Of a DNA stretch of 64,000 nt, positions 1-60,320 are shown piece by piece. The stretch lies in the NCBI RefSeq assembly GCF_005484585.1, contig NZ_CP039435.1:372001-436000 (forward strand), written 5' to 3'. Under the pieces are notes generated by a model, which was not told where the DNA came from, made no database searches, and saw nothing but the letters and a program-made list of their open reading frames with translations. Origin of the DNA: Brevundimonas sp. SGAir0440. GTDB taxonomy: Bacteria; Pseudomonadota; Alphaproteobacteria; Caulobacterales; Caulobacteraceae. The position numbers and the translations under genes were made by a program. The first letter of the stretch is position 1; every line of letters begins with the position of its first letter.

Positions 1-205
1 TGACAGGGGTTAGGCCGGTGCTTAAGTCCCGCCTGCGCCCAAGTCGAGGGGTTTTGATCGTCTGCGCGGCCCTTCGCGCGCGCCTGATGCGGCGCTCCGG
101 GGCTGCGATCGGTCAGGGCCACTCTCACGGCGTCCGTATCGCCGCCCCTCACGGGATTTCAGAGCCGCTCAGCTCGCAGACGCTCGACCGCTTACCGGAT
201 CCAAT

Positions 206-24431: not shown

Positions 24432-24581
24432 GTCTCCTCCCTGCTTTGCGGGGAGGTGGCGCGGCGCTTCTTCAGCGCCGTGACGGAGAGGCTCTTCGGA
24501 GCGTCACCGATCAAGGGCCTTAAGGCGGCCTCAACCCTCCACCGTTGCGCGGTCCCCCTCCCCGCAAAGCGGGGAGGAGAC
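24432..24581. repeat. 150-bp palindromic element with 25-bp inverted ends
   Basis: The first 25 bases (from GTCTCCTCCCTGCTTTGCGG) and the last 25 are inverted repeats with one mismatch, and each end is itself a hairpin (GCTTTGC core). The interior contains further short palindromes, for example GGCGC around 24463-24479 and GGCC around 24515-24530. No reading frame of interest is inside. Its structure resembles a MITE or compound REP unit. It occupies most of the 271-base gap between pirin and alaS; the remaining sequence near 24640-24689 is left for the alaS promoter. Confidence 0.7.
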
Positions 24582-28987: not shown

Positions 28988-29019
28988 CGTCCTACCGCCC
29001 TTCGGGCTGCTTGAGGACG
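28988..29019 (-). repeat. REP-like nested hairpin, copy 3 of 7
   Basis: Outer arms CGTCCT/AGGACG (6 bp) enclose an inner GCCC-TTC-GGGC hairpin with conserved ACC and TGCTTG unpaired segments. It sits between icd and its terminator and abuts the next palindromic unit at 29019. Confidence 0.75.
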
Positions 29020-29067
29020 TCTCCTCCCCCATCGGGGGAGGGGGACCGCGAAGCGGTGGAGGGGGCT
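29019..29067. repeat. Half-unit of the GGGGAG compound palindrome
   Basis: CTCCCCCATCGGGGGAG is followed by a second hairpin ACCGC-GAA-GCGGT and a G-run. This is the same order as in one end of the elements at 24432-24581 and 53771-53906. No matching inverted end is seen before icd, so this looks like a solo or decayed copy. Confidence 0.55.
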
Positions 29068-38686: not shown

Positions 38687-38716
38687 GGCCTACCGCGCTT
38701 CGCGCTACTTGAGGCC
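38687..38716 (-). repeat. REP-like nested hairpin, copy 5 of 7
   Basis: This copy matches the family best: arms GGCCT/AGGCC, inner GCGC-TTC-GCGC, unpaired ACC and TACTTG. It starts eight bases before the truB start codon on the coding strand's upstream side, so the ribosome site of truB must lie within or next to it. Confidence 0.82.
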
Positions 38717-53770: not shown

Positions 53771-53906
53771 ATCCTTCCCCGTGAGCGCTTGCGAACGGGG
53801 GAGGGGGACCACGACGTGGTGCAGGGGGCGACCCCGCGCACCGTGTCTGGTTCCGCCCCTCCACCGCCTGACGGCGGTTCCCCTCCCCCGCGACGCGGGG
53901 GAGGAT
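53771..53906. repeat. 136-bp palindromic element with inverted ends between the S9 genes
   Basis: The left end ATCCTTCCCC...GGGGGAGGGGGACC and the right end, read in reverse, ATCCTCCCCC...GGGGGAGGGGAACC, correspond with several mismatches. Each end is a hairpin followed by a second hairpin ACC/GGT and a G-run, as in the element at 24432-24581. It fills most of the 163-base gap between the two peptidase genes and does not contain a reading frame of interest. Confidence 0.62.
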
Positions 53907-58790: not shown

Positions 58791-60320
58791 TCACGCCCGG
58801 TCCGGCGCGGCGATGATGGCGGCCTTCACGGCCCGACGCCAGCCGGAAAGCAGACGCTCGCGCTCGTCCGCCTTCATGCGCGGTTTCCAGCAGGCGGGCG
58901 CTTCAGCGGGTCGCGCCTCCAGATCGGGCAGCAGTCCGACGCCCAGGGCCGCCAAGCGCGCGGCGCCCAGAGCCGTCATCTCCTGGAAGGCCGGACGCTC
59001 CACCTCCACCTCGCAGATGTCGGCGACGAACTGCATGGCGAAACTGTTGGCGGTGACACCACCGTCCACCTTCAGCGTCTTCAGAGGCGGCGCGCCGTCG
59101 GCGGCCAGGGCATCGAGCAGGTCACGCGTCTGATAGGCCAGGGCTTCCAGCGCGGCGCGCACGAAATGCGCCGGACCGGAATCCCGTGTCAGCCCGACGA
59201 TGGTTCCCCTCGCTTCCGGCTCCCACCATGGCGCACCCAGACCGGTGAAGCCCGGAACCATGTAGATCCCGCCGTTGTCCCTGAGGGTCTGCGCCATCGC
59301 CTCCGACTGGCGCGACTCCGAGATCAGCCCGACCCCGTCCCTCAGCCACTGGATCGCCGAGCCGGCCGAGAAGATCGACCCTTCCAGCGCATAGGCGGTC
59401 TGGCCGCCGGCCTGATAGCCGAGCGTGCCCAATAGGCGCCGGGTTGAGGCCACCGGCTCCACGCCCACATTGGCGACCAGAAAGGCGCCGGTGCCATAAG
59501 TAATCTTGGCGTCCCCGGCCTTCAGCGCCCCGTGCCCGACAAGAGCCGCCTGCTGGTCCCCTGCTGATCCGGCGATGGGTAGCGGTTGGCCGAACAGCGC
59601 CGGATCGCTCTCGCCGATTACACCCGCGCAAGGGACGATGTCGGGCAGGGCTTCGCGCGGGATGTCGAACAAGGCGCATAGGTCGTCACGCCACTCGACG
59701 CAACTCAGATCCATCAGAGACGTGCGGGAAGCGTTGGTCGCGTCGGTGGCGTGGACCCGGCCGCCGGTCAGTTTCCAGATCAGCCAGGCGTCGATCGTGC
59801 CCAGCTTGACCTCGCCCTTCGCCGCCCGCTCGCGCGATCCGGGCACAGCATCCAGGAGCCAGGCGAACTTGGTCGCCGAGAAATAGGGATCGAGGATCAG
59901 GCCGGTCGCGGTCTGGACCCTCGGCTCGTGGCCCTGGGCAGTCAGGCGTGCGGTGACGTCGGCGGTGCGGCGATCCTGCCAGACGATGGCGCGATGCAGA
60001 GGCTCGCCGGTCGCCGCGTCCCAGATCACGGCCGTTTCCCGCTGATTGGTGATGCCGATGGCGTTGAAGCGGGCAACGCCGCCGGCCTTGCGCACCACCT
60101 CGCGACAGGTCTGGAGCGTTGCGGCCCAAATTTCGGCGGCGTCATGTTCGACCCAGCCGGACTTCGGGAAATGCTGGGCCAGCTCGATCTGGCTGACTGC
60201 GACGGGCCTCAGGTCCCCTTCTTCTTCGCCTACCGCGCTTCGCGCTGCCTGAGGCGCGACCTCGAAGGCGATGGCGCGGGTCGAGGTCGTGCCCTGGTCG
60301 ATGGCAAGGATCAGGCTCAT
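58791..60320 (-). CDS. glpK: Glycerol kinase with a repeat-derived N-terminal insert
   Basis: GlpK phosphorylates glycerol to glycerol 3-phosphate. The 509-residue product has the ATP site LAIDQGTTSTRAIAF, GWVEHDAAEIW, WQDRRTADV and the C-terminal VDGGVTANSFAMQFVAD. Between residues 20 and 37 (after AIAF, before RPVAVSQ) there are about 14 residues that other GlpKs lack. Ten of them, APQAARSAVG at 22-31, are encoded by a copy of the REP-like repeat. The reading frame is open and the rest is intact, so the kinase may work. It lies 37 bases 5' of the phosphotransferase gene; a transporter (glpF) is not seen. Confidence 0.94.
   Translation of the reverse strand: MSLILAIDQGTTSTRAIAFEVAPQAARSAVGEEEGDLRPVAVSQIELAQHFPKSGWVEHDAAEIWAATLQTCREVVRKAGGVARFNAIGITNQRETAVIWDAATGEPLHRAIVWQDRRTADVTARLTAQGHEPRVQTATGLILDPYFSATKFAWLLDAVPGSRERAAKGEVKLGTIDAWLIWKLTGGRVHATDATNASRTSLMDLSCVEWRDDLCALFDIPREALPDIVPCAGVIGESDPALFGQPLPIAGSAGDQQAALVGHGALKAGDAKITYGTGAFLVANVGVEPVASTRRLLGTLGYQAGGQTAYALEGSIFSAGSAIQWLRDGVGLISESRQSEAMAQTLRDNGGIYMVPGFTGLGAPWWEPEARGTIVGLTRDSGPAHFVRAALEALAYQTRDLLDALAADGAPPLKTLKVDGGVTANSFAMQFVADICEVEVERPAFQEMTALGAARLAALGVGLLPDLEARPAEAPACWKPRMKADERERLLSGWRRAVKAAIIAAPDRA
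60227..60256 (-). repeat. REP-like nested hairpin inside glpK, copy 7 of 7
   Basis: Outer arms CGCCT/AGGCG enclose an inner GCGC-TTC-GCGC hairpin with unpaired ACC and TGCCTG, one change from the family consensus. It is read in frame as ten codons of glpK, where other glycerol kinases have only a short turn. It is the only copy inside a gene. Confidence 0.8.

Follow-up and report, generated by a model that had tools for sequence, protein, structure and literature searches.

The question raised by this locus is whether ten codons of the glycerol kinase gene glpK are a palindromic repeat that has become coding sequence. The analysed stretch (hereafter, the window) comprises 64,000 nucleotides of a 3.15-Mb Brevundimonas chromosome. 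The glpK product scores 623.5 bits against TIGR01311 (cut-off 590.35), which identifies it as a glycerol kinase, and its nearest named relative is GlpK of B. vesicularis S00192, with 96% identity. The original prediction was that residues 22-31 are a REP-like copy, that about 14 residues are extra compared with E. coli-type glycerol kinases, and that the repeat came to be translated in a surface turn. The features discussed below are listed in Table 1.

Table 1. Positions in the window of glpK, its internal repeat, and extragenic copies of the same family
Feature	Position	Strand	Remarks
glpK, glycerol kinase (host gene)	58791..60320	minus	509 aa; TIGR01311 score over cut-off
30-nt palindromic REP-like element in glpK	60227..60256	minus	outer 5-bp stem; inner 4-bp stem GCGC-GAA-GCGC; reads APQAARSAVG
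A-rich tail of the element, AAGAAGAAGG	60217..60226	minus	part of EEEG; A-rich positions 29-37 in 82 copies
Extragenic copy, same family as glpK repeat	38687..38716	minus	directly upstream of truB
Extragenic copy, same family as glpK repeat	28989..29018	minus	inner stem GCCC-GAA-GGGC

The repeat family has the core CCTCAAGYAGCNCGAAGNGCGGTAGG, which is matched 27 times in the genome of this strain (up to three mismatches), whereas a reversed control pattern yields no matches across the same genome. Pairs (-2..2)/(23..27) and (9..12)/(16..19) are maintained with double changes in a set of 82 unique copies drawn from three genomes. Such changes are many and far above shuffles at pairs (-1,26), (0,25) and (11,17), with a smaller excess at (-2,27), and pairing ends at -3/28; the palindrome is therefore 30 nt long. 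On this covariation, an outer stem of 5 bp and an inner stem of 4 bp are separated by a 6/3 internal loop, the inner stem is closed by a GAA loop, and an A-rich tail occupies positions 29-37. The structure is drawn from covariation rather than from the single-strand folding energies of single copies, whose z-scores of -0.8 to -2.7 do not decide it. In glpK, the core lies at 60229-60254 (minus), with one mismatch to CCTCAAGNAGCNCGAAGNGCGGTAGG, and the predicted stretch 60227-60256 coincides exactly with the 30 nt of the palindrome, which on the coding strand makes up the codons for residues 22-31 (APQAARSAVG). The A-rich tail accounts for most of EEEG, and similar A-rich tails are found in glpK of related strains.

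At up to two mismatches, the family occurs in 54 of the 73 sampled Brevundimonas genomes, and no match was found in the 226 genomes that represent 21 other Caulobacteraceae genera. No match in the window was obtained with Rfam at the gathering score, blastn of a plasmid collection did not find the element, and no description of the family turned up in a literature search. This Brevundimonas repeat family looks new.

A copy located upstream of a mis-called glpK start was ruled out. D8 and G10-S13, the invariant residues of the phosphate loop, lie on the amino-terminal side of the repeat, which is therefore truly internal to the gene. At the position of the insert, solved glycerol kinases are shorter by 14 residues, in agreement with the predicted excess, and the nearest repeat-free relatives are shorter by 11 residues (33 nt). 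In an AlphaFold2 model built on an alignment of 34 relatives (mean pLDDT 90), residues 25-33 have pLDDT below 50 and are flanked by strands 13-21 and 38-46; the insert is accordingly modelled as a floppy turn that joins beta strands 2 and 3, and translation of the repeat copy should yield a flexible loop. In pairwise comparisons within the clade of this strain, 34 of the codon differences in the insert are replacing and 26 are silent, compared to 320 and 1594, respectively, in the rest of the gene; the insert is thus under relaxed constraint. Near-neutral tolerance is the simplest reading of these data.

Additional G/A/S-rich residues without recognisable repeat DNA occupy the same turn in glpK of sister lineages (L041, L042, L043 and L046). 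These could be either decayed repeats or unrelated insertions.

Across Brevundimonas, occupancy of the site was scored by reading the sequences (for example, locus L051 was scored as occupied and L115 as lacking the repeat). The insert is present in seven genomes with GlpK 96-100% identical, and three loci at 97% protein identity (L036, L037 and L039) carry the empty allele FEIREQ[ND]L[RG]PVAVSQ. Because these three very close relatives lack the insert, the repeat must have entered an already existing gene. The claim that a repeat became coding sequence in a surface turn is borne out by the empty sites in sister genomes together with the low-confidence loop in the model. The junction in the lineage of this strain is not clean, as some 9 nt of the allele without the insert fail to align. 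Overall, 16 out of 110 glpK genes from Brevundimonas have the repeat at this position, with identical orientation and reading frame in every case. Most relatives have no insert and those that bear it show recognisable repeat DNA; an insert shared by all relatives with unrelated nucleotide sequence, the pattern that would speak against the original prediction, was not seen.

Three hairpin subtypes occupy the site: GCGC-GAA-GCGC in the clade of this strain and in L051; GGGC-GAA-GCCC in one clade (L058, L060, L066, L082 and L088); and GCGC-AAG-GCGC in L080. Two tandem copies are present in L082 and three in L122. The GGGC-GAA-GCCC subtype is so rare (12 exact copies in 131 genomes, 5 of these in glpK) that the five glpK copies very probably share common descent. 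Parsimony on the glpK tree required 13 changes for repeat presence, whereas shuffled labels required 15.3 on average, and presence is thus barely related to the gene tree. Two empty alleles in the clade of this strain, L036 and L039, are identical (0% differing sites) over the interval -60 to +200 relative to the insertion site, but differ by 5.5-9% farther upstream and 5-6% farther downstream; the identical stretch between diverged flanks is a clear tract of allele exchange by recombination. We infer at least three insertions at the glpK site, followed by exchange and loss, although, given the common orientation and frame, there could have been fewer independent insertions.

We consider it very probable that a Brevundimonas-specific REP-like mobile unit was inserted in-frame into the glpK beta2-beta3 turn, where it is near-neutral ballast, and that the alleles were spread by recombination. 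The mobile unit would be about 36-42 nt long, that is, the 30-nt palindrome with its A-rich tail, and would insert in-frame into the codons of the glycerol kinase beta2-beta3 hairpin turn. The element appears to be open in four of its six frames, so that an insertion with a length that is a multiple of three may often be survivable, and because the turn tolerates extra residues, the glpK insert would be close to neutral. Occupied and empty alleles would then pass between species by homologous recombination, and where the insert was lost, this may in most lineages have been either by deletion or by replacement with an empty allele. The profile PF01797 (Y1 transposases, including RAYTs) has no match in the genome of this strain and is lacking in 127 of 131 Brevundimonas genomes; in the absence of a Y1 transposase, the element may move in trans or via host repair.

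An unlikely alternative is that the repeat entered glpK once, long ago, in the common ancestor of Brevundimonas, that most lineages have since lost it while a few retained it, and that the hairpin subtypes arose by divergence at the site itself. This would account for the identical codon position, frame and orientation of all copies and for the five copies of the rare GGGC-GAA-GCCC stem in one clade, where common descent is likely. However, one gain on the glpK tree would require 28 losses, the site is occupied by three hairpin subtypes, and two copies from the clade of this strain (L033 and L035) are still identical to the genome consensus, which suggests a young insertion.

In a survey of about 160 copies from six genomes, clear internal in-frame copies were identified in only one other host gene besides glpK. 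Genomes G033 and G109 encode a TIGR00275 FAD flavoprotein with an internal in-frame copy, which is read as ASSSPKGDRP, in a frame other than that used in glpK. Flavoproteins of this family with an in-frame copy are also encoded in G009, G012, G036, G055, G059, G083, G103, G106, G129 and G130, among others (loci with the in-frame repeat include L251, L288, L322-L325, L327, L337-L340 and L343). Comparison of VVKGGGT-ASSSPKGDRPQA-SFAEAMLF in G059 with VVKGGGTSFAEAMLF in G043 reveals a clean empty site. The flavoprotein of the strain analysed here (L302) has no recognisable repeat at that site. Separately, three tandem copies at G003:C1:1905087-1905190 (L349) appear to lengthen the carboxy end of a putative open frame on the opposite strand.

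That only two host genes contain clear internal copies, each at one site in many species, might indicate selection on the site or on the extra loop, either because the kinase is adjusted in its activity or assembly by the insert or because the DNA at this turn is targeted preferentially. This explanation appears improbable given that the insert has an elevated level of replacing substitutions, that close relatives have glpK without it, and that turn length also varies via non-repeat residues (L041-L043), as mere tolerance predicts. Also improbable is a true hot spot at the beta2-beta3 turn, with repeated independent insertion of the palindrome by some machinery and the loop kept for changing the enzyme. 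Chance likeness of the glpK codons to the repeat can be dismissed: GC-rich codons may look palindromic, but the copy is one mismatch away from a family pattern whose reversed control has no match genome-wide, and relatives with an empty site exist.

The preferred reading, in-frame insertion of a mobile palindrome, has parallels in known repeat systems. REPs of the GTAG and CGTC super-families are palindromes of 20-40 bp that are mostly extragenic, although some lie wholly within ORFs, and a single gene can contain two or more of them; in one reported case, different REPs occupy about the same recB site in two Xanthomonas species (Di Nocera et al. 2013, PMC3733652). According to the account given in PMC10969869 (citing Ogata et al. 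2000, 2002), Rickettsia palindromic elements (RPE) are repeats of about 150 bp found in-frame in unrelated metabolic genes. The original prediction likened the glpK insert to these elements and held such insertions to be uncommon outside Rickettsia. The likeness stands insofar as the Brevundimonas copies, too, are in-frame in protein genes, glpK and the TIGR00275 flavoprotein, but the supposed rarity is contradicted by the REPs wholly within ORFs of several species outside Rickettsia (PMC3733652). Occupation of the glpK site in several Brevundimonas lineages, the tandem copies and the second host gene go beyond the original prediction.

The glpK repeat resembles GTAG and CGTC REPs in being a small, dispersed, mostly extragenic palindrome that is sometimes located inside genes, and with 27 copies and covarying stems it conforms to the broad definition of REPs (many dispersed, mostly extragenic palindromes of 20-40 bp). 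It differs from both super-families by the 5+4-bp stem broken by the 6/3 internal loop, the GAA triloop and the A-rich tail, and has neither a GTAG nor a CGTC end tag. Instead of the conserved unpaired GTAG at the stem-loop end, positions 21-24 read G/A/T-T-A-G, are half paired and leave no tag outside the stem, and the RAYT (Y1) transposase typical of the GTAG super-family was not detected in the genome of this strain. Likewise, no CGTC, TGTC or CCTC tags were found outside the stem of the element, and the broken stem and 3-nt loop do not correspond to the 8-9 bp stem and 4-5 nt loop of the CGTC super-family. Compared by description only, the repeat differs from RPEs in length (about 40 nt vs about 150 bp), in its Brevundimonas host and in its few target genes. 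By analogy, the glpK repeat appears to work like GTAG/CGTC REPs and RPEs, and we would file it with neither super-family nor as an RPE. The insertion is a well-documented new case of a known kind, REPs within genes, and the repeat family itself looks new.

At one codon position, Brevundimonas offers a natural series of alleles that are empty or hold a single, double or triple copy, each bordered by close relatives, which lets the turning of a selfish palindrome into protein be watched; no comparable series was found in the published examples consulted. Because Brevundimonas includes cultured strains, tolerance of the insert is directly testable.

Many extragenic copies are located within about 20 nt upstream of likely start codons (38687-38716 in the window; L003, L006, L009, L018 and L024), with the A-rich tail at the position expected for a ribosome-binding site, and a leader function of these start-proximal copies is possible. 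Open frames that contain a copy ahead of truB, ileS and further genes were rejected as not coding, the likely gene starts being downstream of the copy. The element also forms tandem arrays, with 7 copies at a 38-nt period (G011:C1:618884-619137), 12 copies at a 40-nt period (G011:C1:667828-668293) and, directly upstream of truB, 5 copies at a 42-nt period (G109:C1:2188794-2188987); such regular arrays could pass for CRISPR arrays.

A second, apparently unrelated palindromic family, of the CCCTCCACCG..GCGGTCCCCCTCCCC type, is represented in the window at 24432-24581, 29033-29066 and 53796-53829. Two pairs of direct repeats of about 190-200 nt (51938-52135/54345-54542 and 53354-53541/55770-55957), each with 2.4 kb spacing and 74-79% identical, suggest tandem paralogous genes.
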